Virus record (IMG/VR): IMGVR_UViG_3300020475_000267 | Location: 1 to 39,566 of that record | DNA from: a virus | Reading direction: 5' to 3' (one strand) | Length of the DNA: 39,566 nt | Shown here: positions 3,156 through 39,458 of the stretch, one piece after another | Layout of the letters: each line of letters starts with the position of its first letter | How positions within the stretch are numbered: position 1 is the stretch's first letter | The notes under the pieces: model-generated | What the model was told of the DNA's origin: nothing | The model's input: the letters and a program-made list of their open reading frames with translations, nothing else | Databases searched by the model: none | Translations under genes and position numbers: made by a program

Positions 3156-3455
3156 ATGACATATCAAGCACTACCAAATGAGTTACATATAAAGGATAGT
3201 CCTATAGCAGGTCAAGGTCTTTTTGCGAAAGAAGATATTGATGCTATGATGTACCTTGGTGTATCCCACGTGGTAGTGGAAGACGAGATAATGAGAACGC
3301 CTCTAGGAGGGTTCATAAATCACTCTGAAGACCCCAATTGCGTGAAATGGTACGAAGACCAAGCTTGGGGTAGAATCTACTATATGAAGACGATTAAAGA
3401 GATTAAGAAAGGAGAAGAGTTATTTTTAAAGTATACCTTTTACAAGGTAGGATAA
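3156..3455 (+). CDS. SET-domain protein (putative lysine methyltransferase)
   Basis: The 99-residue protein is almost only a SET domain. The N-terminal motif is IAGQGLFAKEDI at residues 17-28. The core motif GGFINHSEDPNC is at 51-62 and matches the family's FxNHSxxPNC pattern, which contributes to S-adenosylmethionine binding and the pseudoknot. The C-terminal motif IKKGEELFLKYTFY is at 83-96, where the family has GEELxxxYxxxY. The insert between strands is very short, making it smaller than typical SET domains (about 120 residues). Known SET proteins methylate lysines. The target here is unknown and could be a phage structural or a host protein. An AGGAGG lies 32 bases before the ATG, unusually far. 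The frame is open upstream to 3090, so an earlier noncanonical start or a frameshift entry is possible. Confidence 0.8.
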   Translation: MTYQALPNELHIKDSPIAGQGLFAKEDIDAMMYLGVSHVVVEDEIMRTPLGGFINHSEDPNCVKWYEDQAWGRIYYMKTIKEIKKGEELFLKYTFYKVG

Positions 3456-32839: not shown

Positions 32840-35800
32840 ATGGCTATAAATTTTCCCGATAATCCTAATGTTAATGATGTACATACCGAGTCTTCTCTTG
32901 GGAAGAGTTGGAGGTGGGATGGAACTAGTTGGTTAATTTATAGTAGTTCTACTACTGGTATAGGTTATTCTGATCTTTCTGTATCTACAGAAGCAGCACA
33001 GGGTGGTGGATCATTAACTTATAATAATGCAAACGGACAGTTTACATTTAAACCAGCAGCAGGAAGTGGTGGAGGAGCAACTAATTTTACTGGACTTGGA
33101 GATACTCCAAGTTCTCTTACTGCTGGTAAGTGGTTGAAGGTTAATACTGGTGGTACTGCTCTAGAGTGGACTGATGCTCCTACTGGTAATGATACTAATG
33201 ATTATTTAAATACTGCTAGTCTTAGTGGTACTACTTTAACTCTTACTAGGACAGGAACACAATCGTTATCTAATGTTACAGTTGACTTATCATCTTTAAA
33301 CAGTGTTCCTACAACCATTACAGTAGCAAATGAAAGTACAGAAACAGTATGCTATCCGTTGTTCACTACAACAGCTACTGGAAATTTAGAACCTAAAACA
33401 GTAACTAGTTTTAAGTTAAATTCTTCTTCTGGACAATTAGAAGCAGGTAGTTTCAAGAAGACTGGTGGTTCAGCAGCAGAGTTTTTAAAAGCAGATGGTA
33501 GTACAGACAGTACTACTTACTTATCATCAGCTCCATCATATGCTCTTAATGATCTTAGTGATGTAGATGCAACAACTGGAGCAGCAAACGGTAAGATACT
33601 TAAGTATAATGGTGCTTCTTGGGAAGTAGCAGATGATCTAACGGGTGGTGGAAGTGGAAGTCCAGAAATTGTTTGGACTCTTACAGCAAGTGGAACTTCA
33701 GATTATGTTTTCTCTGGTGATGGATTTCCTAATGCAACAGCAGATCCAGATATTACTCTCATAAGAGGTCAGACATATAAGTTTACTAACAATACTGGTG
33801 GACATCCATTTAGAATTCAAACTGATCCTGCACAAGCAGGTGGTGGAACTCAGTATAATAGTGGTGTAACAAATAACGATGCTAGTGGTGCTTCAAACCA
33901 GACATTGATATTTGTTGTGCCAATGAATGCTCCTTCTACATTATATTATCAGTGTACAGCACATCCTGCTATGACTGGTACAATTAATATTCTTGATTCT
34001 TCTATTTCTACTAGTTTAGGTGGATTGACAGATGTTGATACAACTGGTGCTGCAAATGGTAAGATACTTAAGTATAATGGAACTTCTTGGGAGATAGCAG
34101 ATGATTTGACAGGTGGAGGAGGTTCTGCAAACTTTACTGGATTATCTGACACACCTACATCTCTTACTGCTGGTAAGTGGTTAAAGGTTAATGCTGGTGC
34201 TACTGCTTTAGAGTGGACTGATGCTCCTTCTGGTGATACAACATATGATTTGTCAGCAATAGCAGATAGTGGAAATGCAAAGGTTCGTTTAACAGGTTCT
34301 GATAGTACTGACGATGATGTAACTTTTACTGCTGGTGGAGGAATATCCTACGCAGTAACAGGTAATACAGTTCAAATTTCTAGTAGCAATAGTCTTGGTG
34401 CATTAACAGATACTAATATTAGTGGATCTCCTACCGATAATTATGTTCTTACTTATGATCTTGCATCTAGTACATGGGAACCTCAACCTGTTCCAGGTGG
34501 ATCACAAAATTTATTCTCTACATTTGCTGTTGCTGGACAAAGTAATGTTGTTGCAGATACAACCACAGATACATTAACATTTTCAGCTGGTAGTAATATG
34601 ACAATTACTACGGATGCTAATAATGATGTTATTACATTTGCTTCTGCTGGTGCTGGAAGTTTGAATATTAAATATTTACAAGATACTGGTCCTGCTAACA
34701 ATAATTACATCAGTTATTTCACTGGAGTTCTAGGTAGTTATGCAAATTATCAATTTGATACAAATTACCCTACAGGATTCCAGTCTCAATCTTGGAATAA
34801 TTGGGGTGGATGGATCAATCCTTGGAATGCAGGAGGACAGCAAGGTGATGGTTTACTATTCTTTACTTTATCTGATAATAGTGAGACTACTTGGGACTTA
34901 AAATTACATAGTACTTCTCCTAATACTAGTTTAACATCAGGTCAGCAGTGCCGTTGTTGGACATCAACTGATGGTGAAAACTGGGTTTATCAAGGTACAA
35001 ATAACACCATAAGCACAACTACTACAATAAGTATTACAACTGCATATCTTATTGTTACTGATCTTGGAATGGGTTCTGGTAATGAAGTTTATCTAGAAGT
35101 TGGTAGTTCTAGTATTGGAGGTACAAGCTACTTAACTAAAACTGGGTTAAGTGTTAATAAACTTGCTAATAGTGGTACTGGTAATTTAACATATAATAAT
35201 GCAGGAGTACTTACGTATACTCCACCTGCACTTACAGATAATAATGATTATGTAACTAATCTATCTTTATCTGGCACTACATTAACTGCTGAATTTGGCA
35301 ACACTTCATTAAATCAAACTATTGATCTTGCTTCTATTAATACTGATACTAATACACAACTATCATCAGAGGATGTTCAGGATATTGTTGGTGCAATGTT
35401 TACAGGTAATACTGAAACAAATATCACTGCTACTTATGAAGATTCAGATGGAACAATTGATTTAGTTGCTGCTGGTGGTGGTGGTACTAACACAACATAT
35501 GATTTAGCAGCATCAGCAGATTCTGGAAATGCAAAGATTACTTTATCAGGTTCTGATTCTACTGATGATGATGTAACTTTTACTGCTGGTGGAGGAATAT
35601 CATATGCAGTAACAGGTAACACAGTTCAAATTAGTAGTGCTAATAGTCTCGGTGGATTAACAGATACTAATATTACTGGATCTCCTACTGATAATTATGT
35701 TCTGACTTATGATCTTGCATCTAGTACATGGGAACCTCAACCTGTTCCTAGTGGATCAACACCAACTCTTAACGCTGTATTAGGTGCAGGTAATACAAGT

Positions 35801-37402
35801 ACTCTGGCAGCAACAGTTGGAAATCTTACTTGTAGTAATTTAACAGTTAATGGAACTACAACGACTGTTAATAGTAACACTGTAAATATTGGAGATAATA
35901 TACTTGTTCTGAATAGTGATGAGACAGGTACTCCATCACAAAATGGTGGAGTTGAGATTGAGAGAGGTACATCTACCAATGTATCACTTCGTTGGAATGA
36001 GACTACAGATAAGTGGCAGTATACTAATGACGGTACTAACTTCTCTGATATTGGTAGTTCTACTACAGACACAAATACAACATATGATCTTGAAGCATTA
36101 ATATCTCCTGGAATAAAATTAGCAGGTAGTGATAGTACAAATGATAGTGTATTCTTTGATAGTGGCAATGGAATGTCAATATCTCGTACTAATGCAACTG
36201 ACATAGAATTTTCTGTCAATATGATTGACGAAGATGATATGGCATCTAATAGTGATACTAGACCTCCTACTCAGCAGTCAGTTAAAGCTTATGTAGATGC
36301 TAATAGTGGTGGTACTGATACTAATGATTATGTAAACACTGCTGGTATTAGTGGTAGTGTAATAACTTTAGGTAGGACAGGATCGTTATCAGATCTTACG
36401 GTTGATATATCTGGTGCGACTGGTGACGTTGTTCCTGTTGGTACTATAGTTATGTACAATGGTGATACTGCTCCAACTGGATGGATGTTATGTGATGGTG
36501 TAGAAAGAACTGTTAATAATAGTCCATACACTCCACCAGATCTTAGAGATAAGTTTATTGTTGGTGCTGGTAGTAGTTATACTAGAGGAGATGCTGCTGG
36601 TTCTGCTGATGCAGTGGTTGTATCACATAGTCATGGAAGTGGTAATACAGGAAACCAGAGTGCAAACCATAGTCATGACTCTGGAAATTATTCTGGAAAC
36701 TCAAGTACTCATAATGGGCATACTCATGGTTCTGGAAACTTTTCTGGAAATGCAAGTACTCATAACGGACATACACATGGTTCTGGAAACTTTTCTGGAA
36801 ATGCGAGTACTCATAATGGACATACACATGATAAAGGTAACTATTATACAAGTAATCAAAGTGCTAATCATTATCATACAATAGGTAGTAATAAACCTGA
36901 TGGTTCTCCTGGAACATGGAATGTAAGTACTACTGATGGTGCTCATCAACATGGTATTCAGACTGCCAGTTGGGATAACCAGTCAGATTATACTGGACCT
37001 TATATTCAGGGTGGTAGTAATGCGGGAAATGTTAATACTAGATCAGGACAGGGAAATCATAGTCATACAATTAATTTAACTGGTGTAACTACTGGTGGTG
37101 TAGATCAAAATCATTATCATAATATTTACGGAGGAACTTCTGGATCTGATGGAAATCATTCGCATAATGTAAACTTCAGTGGTAATACTGGATCTGATGG
37201 AAATCATTCGCATAATGTAAACTTCAGTGGTAATACTGGATCTGATGGAAGTCATTCACACACTATAAACCATAGTGGTAATAGTGGAAACCAGAGTGCA
37301 AACCATACTCATTCTGTTAATATTAATTCAGAAGGTGTTTCTGGCACTGGAAAGAATCTTCCACCATACTACGCAATAACCTTTATAATAAAAACAGCAT
37401 AA
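32840..37402 (+). CDS. Long tail fibre with cupredoxin-like, tail-collar and HxH domains
   Basis: The 1520-aa protein opens with NFPDNPNVNDVHT and WRWDGTSW (residues 4-31), a common N-terminal module of marine phage fibres. Repeated LTDVDTTGAANGKILKYNGT and DTPxSLTAGKWLKVN units follow. A cupredoxin-like domain at about 275-385 has H322, C372, H375 and M378 in the order of a type 1 copper site. A GTTTTVNSNTVNIGDNILVL module follows much later. Near the end, residues about 1195-1247 form a phage tail-collar domain (PVGTIVMYNGDTAPTGWMLC then DLRDKFIVGAGS). The last 250 residues carry 13 HxH motifs, as in metal-filled trimeric fibre tips such as T4 gp37, and end KNLPPYYAITFIIKTA. It is the best candidate receptor-binding fibre here. 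Confidence 0.82.
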   Translation: MAINFPDNPNVNDVHTESSLGKSWRWDGTSWLIYSSSTTGIGYSDLSVSTEAAQGGGSLTYNNANGQFTFKPAAGSGGGATNFTGLGDTPSSLTAGKWLKVNTGGTALEWTDAPTGNDTNDYLNTASLSGTTLTLTRTGTQSLSNVTVDLSSLNSVPTTITVANESTETVCYPLFTTTATGNLEPKTVTSFKLNSSSGQLEAGSFKKTGGSAAEFLKADGSTDSTTYLSSAPSYALNDLSDVDATTGAANGKILKYNGASWEVADDLTGGGSGSPEIVWTLTASGTSDYVFSGDGFPNATADPDITLIRGQTYKFTNNTGGHPFRIQTDPAQAGGGTQYNSGVTNNDASGASNQTLIFVVPMNAPSTLYYQCTAHPAMTGTINILDSSISTSLGGLTDVDTTGAANGKILKYNGTSWEIADDLTGGGGSANFTGLSDTPTSLTAGKWLKVNAGATALEWTDAPSGDTTYDLSAIADSGNAKVRLTGSDSTDDDVTFTAGGGISYAVTGNTVQISSSNSLGALTDTNISGSPTDNYVLTYDLASSTWEPQPVPGGSQNLFSTFAVAGQSNVVADTTTDTLTFSAGSNMTITTDANNDVITFASAGAGSLNIKYLQDTGPANNNYISYFTGVLGSYANYQFDTNYPTGFQSQSWNNWGGWINPWNAGGQQGDGLLFFTLSDNSETTWDLKLHSTSPNTSLTSGQQCRCWTSTDGENWVYQGTNNTISTTTTISITTAYLIVTDLGMGSGNEVYLEVGSSSIGGTSYLTKTGLSVNKLANSGTGNLTYNNAGVLTYTPPALTDNNDYVTNLSLSGTTLTAEFGNTSLNQTIDLASINTDTNTQLSSEDVQDIVGAMFTGNTETNITATYEDSDGTIDLVAAGGGGTNTTYDLAASADSGNAKITLSGSDSTDDDVTFTAGGGISYAVTGNTVQISSANSLGGLTDTNITGSPTDNYVLTYDLASSTWEPQPVPSGSTPTLNAVLGAGNTSTLAATVGNLTCSNLTVNGTTTTVNSNTVNIGDNILVLNSDETGTPSQNGGVEIERGTSTNVSLRWNETTDKWQYTNDGTNFSDIGSSTTDTNTTYDLEALISPGIKLAGSDSTNDSVFFDSGNGMSISRTNATDIEFSVNMIDEDDMASNSDTRPPTQQSVKAYVDANSGGTDTNDYVNTAGISGSVITLGRTGSLSDLTVDISGATGDVVPVGTIVMYNGDTAPTGWMLCDGVERTVNNSPYTPPDLRDKFIVGAGSSYTRGDAAGSADAVVVSHSHGSGNTGNQSANHSHDSGNYSGNSSTHNGHTHGSGNFSGNASTHNGHTHGSGNFSGNASTHNGHTHDKGNYYTSNQSANHYHTIGSNKPDGSPGTWNVSTTDGAHQHGIQTASWDNQSDYTGPYIQGGSNAGNVNTRSGQGNHSHTINLTGVTTGGVDQNHYHNIYGGTSGSDGNHSHNVNFSGNTGSDGNHSHNVNFSGNTGSDGSHSHTINHSGNSGNQSANHTHSVNINSEGVSGTGKNLPPYYAITFIIKTA
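33083..33194 (+). repeat. Fibre module, copy 1
   Basis: An imperfect direct repeat, the partner of 34130-34241, 1047 bases (349 codons) apart and therefore in frame. It encodes FTGLGDTPSSLTAGKWLKVN and a TALEWTDAP ending. Confidence 0.75.
34130..34241 (+). repeat. Fibre module, copy 2
   Basis: The second copy of the module at 33083-33194, encoding FTGLSDTPTSLTAGKWLKVN. Differences are mostly synonymous or conservative. Confidence 0.75.
34238..34505 (+). repeat. 268-bp fibre module, copy 1
   Basis: A long imperfect direct repeat, the partner of 35492-35759, offset 1254 bases (418 codons), in frame. It encodes TYDLSAIADSGNAK, then VTFTAGGGISYAVTGNTVQI, then SPTDNYVLTYDLASSTWEPQ. Confidence 0.85.
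35492..35759 (+). repeat. 268-bp fibre module, copy 2
   Basis: The second copy of the 34238-34505 module. Long stretches are identical at the DNA level, which suggests fairly recent duplication or ongoing gene conversion. Confidence 0.85.
36677..36829 (+). repeat. Three tandem 51-bp His-rich repeats
   Basis: Units at 36677-36727, 36728-36778 and 36779-36829 encode GSGNFSGNASTHNGHTH (first copy diverged: DSGNYSGNSSTHNGHTH). Copies 2 and 3 are nearly identical in DNA. Confidence 0.9.
37142..37285 (+). repeat. Three tandem 48-bp His-rich repeats
   Basis: Units at 37142-37189 and 37190-37237 are identical, and 37238-37285 is diverged. Each encodes GSDGNHSHNVNFSGNT or a variant. A 22-bp sequence at 36650-36671 recurs at 37286-37307, bracketing the whole HxH region. 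Confidence 0.9.
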
Positions 37403-37899
37403 TGAATTATCGTCGTGATGTAACGAGTGTGATACAAATTGGAGAAGAGGAAACAAGAGTAGAGGGATACTATCATCTTGATAAAACTGTTGTTTGTGAC
37501 TCTGATGAGATTGCTCGTGGTATAGTAGAGAAACTTGATAGATTACAGAAAGAAGATTTTAATAAAATTCATATACCTAAGTTTGATTACTATGCTATGG
37601 ATAATGCTATTAGATATCGTGTTGAATTTATAAAAGGAGCTCCTCTAGGAACAGTATCAAAATTTAAAGGTGATATCTATGATGATATTGTTGAGAGAGA
37701 ATCTGATTGGACATTTGATGATTATGGATATGGCAACTTTGTAGTGGAGTGGAAGACATTAAAAATATATGCTGTTGATTTTACTTCTTATAGGTATATG
37801 CCTGATAGGGAAGAAAGAAGAAGAAAGTGGAAACAGTACACAGAAAAGAATAAATGGGAGTTAGGAATGGTACTAAATAATGGCAGTATTACCCATTGA
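37402..37899 (+). CDS. 165-aa hypothetical protein
   Basis: The start overlaps the fibre stop (TAATG). The 165-aa protein is acidic/basic mixed: NYRRDVTSVIQIGEEETRVE at the N-terminus, a helix (DEIARGIVEKLDRLQKEDF), IHIPKFDYYAMDNAIRYRVE in the middle, then YGYGNFVVEWKTLKIYAVDF, and a basic tail (PDREERRRKWKQYTEK). The GNFVV then IYAVDF pattern is reminiscent of the xNIxxD and xxIDF motifs of APH/lipopolysaccharide-kinase folds, but the catalytic H-D motif and the N-lobe are missing, so I do not assign kinase function. The last three codons and stop lie in a 24-bp repeat that recurs after the oxygenase gene. It is probably a virion-assembly or accessory protein. Confidence 0.7.
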   Translation: MNYRRDVTSVIQIGEEETRVEGYYHLDKTVVCDSDEIARGIVEKLDRLQKEDFNKIHIPKFDYYAMDNAIRYRVEFIKGAPLGTVSKFKGDIYDDIVERESDWTFDDYGYGNFVVEWKTLKIYAVDFTSYRYMPDREERRRKWKQYTEKNKWELGMVLNNGSITH

Positions 37900-37911
37900 T
37901 TATTATGGATC
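37888..37911 (+). repeat. 24-bp direct repeat, left copy
   Basis: A perfect 24-bp direct repeat (begins ATTACCCATTG, ends TTATGGATC), identical to 38614-38637. This copy covers the last three codons and the stop of the 165-aa gene and an ATG at 37905. Confidence 0.95.
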
Positions 37912-37976
37912 ATGTGAATATAATTTATTATGGAACAACAGTTTTTACTAAATCCCGATCATTCTTGGATACTTAA
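37905..37976 (+). pseudogene. Probable orphaned start of the downstream small gene
   Basis: The left repeat copy carries the same ATG-GAT start as the gene at 38631, five bases after the stop of the 165-aa gene. Past the repeat the frame gives only 23 codons (MDHVNIIYYGTTVF and on) before TAA and overlaps the oxygenase start. It looks like the cut-off 5' end left by insertion, not a functional gene. Confidence 0.4.
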
Positions 37977-38583
37977 TCCAAATTTTAAGACCAAGGCTAA
38001 CGTATGGTCGTATATAAAAAATGTTTTTTCTGATGAAGAATGTGATAAGATTATTGAGTATGGTTCTGTTAAATATGGAGATCTTCGTGAGAAAGCGATG
38101 GTAGGTGATTTAAGTTGGGAGAACAATACAAGAGAGGATAATCTTACTAGAAAAAGTGAAATAGTTATGATTCCCAATAATGATAATGAAGTTCATTGGG
38201 TATTTCAAAAATTATGTAGTGCTGTTAATTCTATAAATCAACAAATTTATCAATATGATTTACGTGTCATAGAGAGTATTCAATACTCTACCTATGATTC
38301 TTCGTATAAAGGGTTTTACGAAAAACATAATGATACACGAGTAGTTTCAGACCCATATGGTATTTTTTCTAGAAAATTAAGTTTAAGTGTTCAGTTATCT
38401 GACCCTAATAATTATGAAGGTGGAGAGGTTCTTCTTCATTGGGGAGGAGAACCCCATATAGCTAACAAACTTCGTGGTTCTATAACTTTTTTTCCTAGTT
38501 TTGTTTTACATGAAGTAACTCCTGTAACAAAAGGCAGAAGAGATTCTTTAGTTTCATGGTGTGTAGGTCCAGAATTTAGATAG
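37930..38583 (+). CDS. 2-oxoglutarate/Fe(II)-dependent oxygenase (prolyl-4-hydroxylase-like)
   Basis: The 217-aa protein fits the 2OG-Fe(II) oxygenase superfamily of the prolyl 4-hydroxylase / PKHD type. The N-terminal helix-rich part has VFSDEECDKIIEYG (32-45), as usual. The iron ligands are H133 and D135 in YEKHNDT and H194 in FFPSFVLHEVTPV. R204 in KGRRDSLVSW is ten residues after the distal His and should bind the 2-oxoglutarate C5 carboxylate. Between lie RKLSLSVQLSDPNNYEGGEV and GSITFFPS, both standard for the family. All catalytic residues are present, so activity is likely. The substrate is unknown: proteins, nucleic acid bases or small molecules are all possible. T4-like cyanophages often carry such genes. 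This one is bracketed by 24-bp direct repeats and is followed by a late promoter, which suggests a mobile cassette. Confidence 0.92.
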   Translation: MEQQFLLNPDHSWILNPNFKTKANVWSYIKNVFSDEECDKIIEYGSVKYGDLREKAMVGDLSWENNTREDNLTRKSEIVMIPNNDNEVHWVFQKLCSAVNSINQQIYQYDLRVIESIQYSTYDSSYKGFYEKHNDTRVVSDPYGIFSRKLSLSVQLSDPNNYEGGEVLLHWGGEPHIANKLRGSITFFPSFVLHEVTPVTKGRRDSLVSWCVGPEFR

Positions 38584-38598
38584 GATAAAATTGAGTCG

Positions 38599-38606
38599 TA
38601 TAAATA
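38599..38606 (+). promoter_or_regulatory. T4-type late promoter (TATAAATA)
   Basis: An exact late octamer, 24 bases before the ATG at 38631 and just before the right repeat copy. It lies within the segment that the repeats suggest was inserted. Confidence 0.8.
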
Positions 38607-38613
38607 TTAGTAC

Positions 38614-38637
38614 ATTACCCATTGATTATTATGGATC
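38614..38637 (+). repeat. 24-bp direct repeat, right copy
   Basis: Identical to 37888-37911. Here it contains the start codon of the small gene at 38631 and its upstream five bases. Confidence 0.95.
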
Positions 38638-38861
38638 CTGCAAACTTAAAAATTGAATTTGAGAAGCAAGTTAAAGATGCTGATGTAAAGATTGCTGACG
38701 CAGAAAAGAATTTAGTACAACTTAGGGAATATAAGACAAAACTTCTAGGTGGACTAGAAACACTGGAGTTGCTTAACCCAAAGACCGAGGAAACTCAGGA
38801 TGGAGTCCCAGAGCAATCCACGGATCCCCAACCTCCAGAACCACCTTCAACTGAGAGTTAG
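38631..38861 (+). CDS. 76-aa coiled-coil protein with proline-rich tail
   Basis: The ATG at 38631 is chosen over the in-frame TTG at 38622. The N-terminal two thirds are a coiled coil (IEFEKQVKDADVKIADAEKN then LREYKTKLLGGLETLELL, residues 8-49). The tail is acidic and proline-rich (VPEQSTDPQPPEPPSTES). It resembles small coiled-coil proteins found next to tail-fibre genes, possibly fibre assembly or trimerisation helpers, but no family is identified. A late promoter precedes it, and its start codon lies in the right copy of the 24-bp repeat. Before the presumed insertion it would have started five bases after the 165-aa gene. Confidence 0.7.
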   Translation: MDPANLKIEFEKQVKDADVKIADAEKNLVQLREYKTKLLGGLETLELLNPKTEETQDGVPEQSTDPQPPEPPSTES

Positions 38862-38894: not shown

Positions 38895-39458
38895 ATGCCA
38901 GCTACTACCAAGAAGAATGTAGATCCGTCAAATACTATTGAGTTTCAAAGGACGGTCATCAATGATATAGCAGGTGATCTGCACAGTATCTTTACTGGTA
39001 CTGCTGCGATCAATGCTGCTACTATTCAAGTTGCTGGTGCGGATATAGGTTCTATATCAGATCATGATGATAAAACTATATTCTTTTATTATGGTGGATT
39101 CACAGCAGATACTAGTGTAAGTTCTGCTGCTAAGTTAGCAGAAGTTTTTAGTCATGAAGATGCATCTGTAGATATTGATGATGGAGTAACTGTAACGGTT
39201 GATGACCAATGTGCATTAATTATTACTCCTAAAACTAAATATGAGTTTTTCTCTAATGATACAGAAACGACTAATATTCAAAAACTTACAGGATTTGCCG
39301 ACAATATAAGAACATCTGTTGTAAAAGATATTACGTTGGGTGGAACCAAAAGAGTTGGATTCATACCAGTGCCTGATGATTTTATAGATGATGTACCTGT
39401 AGATATAGACGATACTTTCACGCTGACCGTTGATGACGGTGCAGTCCTGATTGTATAA
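38895..39458 (+). CDS. 187-aa structural protein with shared N-terminal motif
   Basis: The 187-aa protein begins with MPATTKKNVDPSN and then TIEFQRTVINDIAGDLH (residues 14-30), which resembles the TFEQQR motif of the two fibre proteins at 24182 and 27404. The rest is strand-rich with an internal repeat: DASVDIDDGVTVTVDDQCAL near residue 90 and PVDIDDTFTLTVDDGAVLIV at the C-terminus. Between lies a probable alpha/beta region (YEFFSNDTETTNIQKLTGFA). It is probably a virion or fibre-associated protein. Its late promoter is a CTAAATA variant. Confidence 0.7.
   Translation: MPATTKKNVDPSNTIEFQRTVINDIAGDLHSIFTGTAAINAATIQVAGADIGSISDHDDKTIFFYYGGFTADTSVSSAAKLAEVFSHEDASVDIDDGVTVTVDDQCALIITPKTKYEFFSNDTETTNIQKLTGFADNIRTSVVKDITLGGTKRVGFIPVPDDFIDDVPVDIDDTFTLTVDDGAVLIV

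Follow-up and report, generated by a model that had tools for sequence, protein, structure and literature searches.

Our analysis of a 39,566-nucleotide stretch of viral DNA (IMG/VR record IMGVR_UViG_3300020475_000267, analyzed over its whole length and referred to as the window), which comes from a marine T4-like phage, suggests that the late promoter and leader of a 76-aa gene (p76) serve as a homology joint at which phages exchange cargo genes. A putative oxygenase gene lies at this joint between two copies of a 24-bp direct repeat, of which the upstream copy is probably a relic of the p76 leader, the oxygenase having been joined to it by recombination. The locus has the following features, in order:

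32840..37402, + strand: 1520-aa tail fibre / baseplate wedge tail fibre connector-like protein (phrog_677, E 4.5e-40), left neighbour
37402..37899, + strand: 165-aa gene (p165), an open reading frame whose last three codons and stop match the p76 leader
37888..37911, + strand: upstream 24-mer, an exact match to the p76 leader and start codon (ATGGATC); probable relic fused to the p165 3' end
37914..37929, + strand: oxygenase leader, TGAATATAATTTATTATGGA running from here into the start codon
37930..38583, + strand: cargo gene for a predicted 217-aa, PKHD-hydroxylase-like 2OG-Fe(II) oxygenase (domain and family matches)
38599..38606, + strand: p76 late promoter TATAAATA, placed at the cassette's right end, 15 bases upstream of the downstream 24-mer
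38614..38637, + strand: downstream 24-mer, native p76 leader and start, in the same role as in five related contigs (L001-L005)
38631..38861, + strand: 76-aa gene, p76 (phrog_580, E 1.4e-15), fixed right neighbour
38895..39458, + strand: 187-aa gene (p187), function unassigned; right flank for mosaic comparison

The cargo protein exceeds the curated cut-off for Pfam PF13640 (E 1.4e-9; 39.2 bits against a cut-off of 27) and matches phrog_61 (E 5e-30) and 3dkq (E 3e-10). By these matches it belongs to the 2OG-Fe(II) oxygenase superfamily and resembles PKHD-type hydroxylases, and it is predicted to be an enzyme. To its left, the 1520-aa fibre protein has a weak collar domain (Pfam Collar, slightly below the cut-off), and near its C-terminus the gene carries tandem histidine-rich repeats of 51 bp and 48 bp (36668-36845 and 37133-37288), whose copy number is prone to change. 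As for the right side of the cargo, in two cultured cyanophages a p76 relative directly precedes a gene of the neck, namely g13 in S-RSM4 and a neck protein gene in S-H9-1. The window also encodes T4-like baseplate wedge proteins, a 99-aa SET-domain protein adjoining phage baseplate genes (PF00856, E 1e-10; 3156-3455), and a 231-aa protein with a T5orf172/MUG113 (GIY-YIG-like) domain that is possibly a nuclease (1053-1748, 36 kb from the junction).

The 24-mer ATTACCCATTGATTATTATGGATC occurs as an exact direct repeat at 37888-37911 and 38614-38637, with a copy-to-copy spacing of 726 bp, as the preliminary description of this DNA had reported for both positions and distance. No third copy was found in the whole record with up to 3 mismatches allowed, no match arose in 100 dinucleotide shuffles, and about 1.6e-5 direct pairs of at least 24 bases are expected from base composition. 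Among exact repeats of at least 20 bases in the window it is the sole one at a gene junction, the rest being located inside repetitive tail-fibre genes. The two copies differ in what they encode. Both had been described as the end of the 165-aa gene, its stop, a spacer and an ATG; this holds for the upstream copy, which consists of the final p165 codons and stop (ATT ACC CAT TGA), then TTATT, then ATG. In the downstream copy, the 24 bases make up the 5' leader of p76 and its start (ATG at 38631), and "TGA" is plain leader sequence with no 165-aa gene before it.

To establish which copy is native, we scanned IMG/VR for the exact 24-mer and found it in five contigs (L001-L005), once in each. In every case it lies 15 bases past the start of TATAAATA, and its last bases reach just into the start of a p76 relative; in cyanomyoviruses and T4, NATAAATA/TATAAATA is the late promoter motif (PMC2984593). 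Since the 24-mer has this place behind a late promoter in all five contigs, the downstream copy is, on this comparison, the normal leader and start of p76 and not a product of insertion. The odd copy is the upstream one, best read as what remains of a p76 leader joined to the p165 3' end, which in the window carries ATTACCCATTGATT. Neither the 24-mer nor its 20/21-mer core was found outside the five contigs, prokaryote genomes included; the 24-mer marks a single junction in the window and occurs once in each related record, all of these records being genome fragments. The leader folds no better than its shuffles (z 0.2 to 1.4) and matches no Rfam family, and no terminator-like site was found on the plus strand at the junction. 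A full second promoter in the p165 end (CTAAATAA) was rejected as chance, the alignment extended beyond the 24-mer scoring 51 against 48 for the exact 24-mer.

Two further features of the fused junction were observed. The orphan ATG of the upstream copy (ATGGATC) opens a 23-codon frame at 37905-37976 that overlaps the oxygenase start out of frame. In addition, the junction contains a sigma-70-like TTGATT-17-TATAAT at 37896-37924 (10/12), with its -35 in the 24-mer and its -10 in the oxygenase leader; sigma-70-like sites show no excess (7 found, 7.7 expected from shuffles).

Comparison with the related contigs provided empty, filled and alternative versions of the site. In L003, L004 and L005 a 111-aa gene (p111) is followed by the late promoter, the 24-mer and p76, with no oxygenase. 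L002 carries p111, the same oxygenase (92% aa identity), the promoter, one exact 24-mer and p76. Nucleotide identity between L002 and L003 is 92% for p111, 93% for p76 and 96% for p187, and the two contigs differ by a clean oxygenase insertion of about 700 bp with both ends at the late promoter. This pair sets a filled site directly against an empty one for the same cargo and shows that the oxygenase can occur without the 24-bp duplication. The preliminary description had suggested looking for empty sites with one 24-mer between p165 and p76; empty sites exist in L003-L005, with p111 rather than p165 as the left gene. No genome was found in which p165 is joined directly to p76 without the oxygenase, and in the nearest relative of p165 (L052) a 61-aa gene lies between the two. 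The oxygenase occurs at the p76 junction in two genomes only (the window and L002), with unlike left edges, and its leader was found outside the window in L002 only. When the whole locus was searched against phage records for near-identical DNA, no match emerged.

The oxygenase is 95.1% identical between the window and L002 at the nucleotide level (654 bp), whereas the rest of p76 is 76.6% and p187 75.0% identical. Because the value for the oxygenase far exceeds the 75-77% of the genes to its right, the oxygenase appears to have moved as a cassette. Together with the filled/empty pair and the relatives with other cargo, this bears out the earlier proposal that the oxygenase and the late promoter downstream of it form an inserted cassette. 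The similarity to L002 sets in abruptly at 37914, directly behind the upstream 24-mer, and this point hence marks the left edge of the cassette. Rightward, the similarity runs through the promoter and leader into p76. Since the start of p76 in the window is as close to oxygenase-free L003 as to L002 (91-93%), the right crossover can only be localized to the leader or to sequence beyond it.

The p76 leader appears to be a site of exchange well beyond this cassette. Across 39 loci, the genes directly before it belong to 18 unrelated families, and most of these loci have a late promoter of the TAAATA type ahead of p76. Three mosaic pairs have their breaks at or beside the leader: L003/L004 (93% identity upstream, 20% downstream), L002/L004 (p111 96%, p76 63%) and L004/L005 (p111 76%, p76 98%, downstream 99%). 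The leader itself keeps 93-100% identity across the window and L002-L005, with the sequence changing on either side of it. In S-RSM4 (L078, 1-6474), several genes annotated as oxygenase, "DNA endonuclease" or ferrochelatase stand one after another immediately ahead of the p76 relative and g13, and by PHROG resemblance some of these are probably oxygenases despite their annotation. Because S-RSM4 has this oxygenase run just upstream of p76, we regard the region upstream of p76 as a recurrent entry region for oxygenase cargo.

Within this general pattern the window stands apart. A search for the 24-mer around other cargo had been suggested; other cargo was found, in that p111 lies beside a single copy, and none of 30 other loci has a second upstream leader copy comparable to that of the window. 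Thus the arrangement in the window is a one-off product of the joint and not its standard form. When the left flank of the L002 oxygenase was aligned with the leader, its score was reached by 0 of 5000 shuffles with the promoter included and by 46 of 5000 without it. This flank looks like a decayed leader, the resemblance being weak once the promoter is left out, and therefore older rounds of exchange at the same joint are possible.

A stronger proposal, which we consider rather doubtful, is that the p76 late promoter and leader are a dedicated joint under selection, a sequence that T4-like marine phages keep constant for trading cargo. Each package would then comprise a gene, a trailing late promoter and a leader, traded just upstream of the neck genes as a late-gene counterpart of the PeSL cassettes considered below. 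Against a joint of any kind, conservation of the 24-mer may serve expression only, the breaks falling there since gene boundaries tolerate them.

The order of events, and the recombination enzymes involved, we infer as follows. In T4-like marine phages, a variable region of tail-fibre and cargo genes is bounded on its right by p76 as the first constant gene, and co-infecting phages would recombine at or beside its promoter-leader, replacing the gene upstream. In a first step, the 3' end of p165 would have been joined to a p76 leader, perhaps through microhomology at the six-base ATTACC overlap. In a second step, the oxygenase cassette of an L002-like phage, with promoter and leader already at its right end, would have joined in at a point a few bases inside the old p76 start, by an illegitimate join on the left and an ordinary homologous exchange on the right. 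The old leader would thereby have become the upstream copy and the incoming leader the downstream one, and recombination between the repeats would be able to remove the 726 bp. The site shows no integrase, endonuclease or stem-loop.

An unlikely alternative is that the same structure arose by template switching in one step, in which the p165 end invaded a p76 leader at ATTACC, copied about 24-27 bases and switched to the oxygenase leader; the upstream copy would then be templated filler, and an ancestor with p165 next to p76 would never have existed. The upstream copy does begin at the six-base overlap with the p165 codons and end where the L002-like oxygenase leader starts, and the p165-p76 intermediate was not found. 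Moreover, T4 UvsX and Dda cooperate in template switching (PMC3016280). However, this route demands three joins in a single event, and two ordinary exchanges give the same product.

The preliminary description had proposed instead that a mobile element placed the oxygenase into a p165-p76 junction and duplicated a 24-bp target. A perfect repeat at the edges, the tidy junction restored by removing 37912-38637, and the existence of empty sites are all in keeping with this version, which we nevertheless judge very improbable. In six genomes, the window included, the 24-mer is the pre-existing p76 leader, and it is conserved in oxygenase-free genomes; in L002 the same oxygenase is accompanied by a single exact copy and has a left edge unlike that of the window; and, as noted above, no comparable duplication was seen at the other 30 loci. 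The oxygenase is the only gene encoded in the unit, from which transposase, integrase and endonuclease are absent. Likewise, there is no homing endonuclease gene among p165, the oxygenase, p76 and the 187-aa gene, the nearest nuclease-like gene being the one 36 kb off at 1053-1748.

We attach a similarly small probability to an assembly chimera, in which two strains were joined at the 24-mer and the upstream copy exists in no real phage. The record is a single metagenomic one, and strain mosaicism is high at the p76 junction. Against this, a chimera needs a real molecule in which the 24-mer is followed by the oxygenase leader, and no other contig shows one; 24 bases are also short for a final assembly k-mer. 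Finally, it is highly improbable that the duplicated leader was kept as a translation or promoter signal for the oxygenase or the 23-codon upstream frame, with recombination incidental, for although the fused junction creates the sigma-70-like site and a reading frame running into the oxygenase begins at the relic ATG, promoter-like sites are no more frequent than in shuffles, no RNA structure is apparent, and L002 has the same gene without a duplicated leader.

The left partner of the junction, p165, has no Pfam match and no strong PHROG match. A single-sequence search of viral contigs found no relatives, and these were found through an alignment only, in L048, L052-L061, L067, L068 and L074-L076 and also in S-TIP37; p165 was absent from 26 records of phages bearing p76 or the oxygenase. 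The nearest relative, in L052, is 70% identical, and its similarity fades before the point of the 24-mer, where the sequence goes on to a 61-aa gene and, after it, a p76 leader that differs. The relatives in L053-L061 and S-TIP37 likewise have other C-termini, and the ITH C-terminus of p165 is present in none of the aligned relatives. Members of the p165 family turn up repeatedly next to tail-fibre and 2OG-oxygenase genes, in marine phages of both T4-like and T7-like type. We considered p165 and the oxygenase as an old inherited pair, from S-TIP37, and rejected this, the S-TIP37 oxygenase not being close (23% over 126 aa).

The predicted model of p165 is confident (pLDDT 88.7), and its best named structural matches, the S-TIP37 relative aside, are almost all protein kinases. 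The top VIA-align 2 match is a 208-residue chain of the Arabidopsis KEOPS complex, which we take to be the small kinase subunit Bud32 (Z 8.9, rmsd 3.4, 134 aligned), a Z near 8-9 being one that alone can reflect a common arrangement. Residues K28, D107, N112 (D-x4-N) and D126 are among those invariant in 14 p165 relatives, and they correspond to the pattern of kinase catalytic residues. Because kinase structural matches and invariant catalytic-type residues coincide, p165 may represent an undescribed minimal kinase-like family of marine phages, as predicted from model and sequence.

The locus offers an unusually clear mosaic boundary of T4-like phages, in which the short conserved sequence can be named and empty, filled and alternative-cargo versions are at hand. 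It makes testable whether mosaicism at gene boundaries is driven by short common expression signals or by random joining and later selection. It also points to a route by which auxiliary genes, such as oxygenases, could enter the late region of marine T4-like phages, bringing the promoter of the next gene with them.

The preliminary description knew of no described mechanism for this layout, which is too strong, as a repeat-flanked insert with single-copy relatives has been published for mycobacteriophage LRRHood. There, 29-bp direct repeats enclose a 1.35-kb insert, one lying where a gene ends and the other ahead of the following gene; relatives lack the cargo and have one copy of the repeat, and general recombination at the repeat was invoked (PMC3029335). 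In the same report, about 50 bp are involved in the indel at gene 68 of Island3/Brujita, and the 29-bp sequence of LRRHood was not found beyond its own subcluster (PMC3029335). The window resembles LRRHood in having its cargo between two short direct-repeat copies and in its single-copy, cargo-free relatives L003, L004 and L005. It differs in the phages and genes involved, in that its repeat is the late-promoter leader of a fixed gene, and in that a near-identical cargo phage is known. Conserved boundary sequences have been proposed for phage mosaicism as a general concept (cited in PMC3029335), and the joint is similar to this concept, in the outline given there, in being a short conserved intergenic sequence that acts as an exchange point.

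Cyanophage mobile gene cassettes carry host-like genes, many of them 2OG-Fe(II) oxygenases, in variable islands of the structural region (Sullivan 2010, PMC3037559), and cyanophage hyperplastic regions are reported by Millard 2009, as cited in PMC2984593. The window shares with such cassettes an oxygenase cargo in the structural region, as does S-RSM4 with its oxygenase run upstream of p76 and g13. Unlike those cassettes, which are linked to endonucleases or tRNAs and located at g15-g18, the unit in the window has neither and lies before g13.

PeSL cassettes of T4-type phages (Arbiol 2010; Comeau 2014) consist of an early promoter and a stem-loop, as outlined in PMC4503421. Like the PeSLs of that outline, the joint is a portable expression signal tied to a cargo gene, common to several loci and providing homology for shuffling. 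In contrast to them, it combines a late promoter (TATAAATA) with a leader that has no structure, and the coding strand carries no terminator-like stem-loop; because its promoter is late and a stem-loop is lacking, the junction falls outside the PeSL definition. The closest precedents are the LRRHood 29-bp repeats and the T4 PeSLs, to which the identity of the repeat as a promoter-leader adds a new detail.
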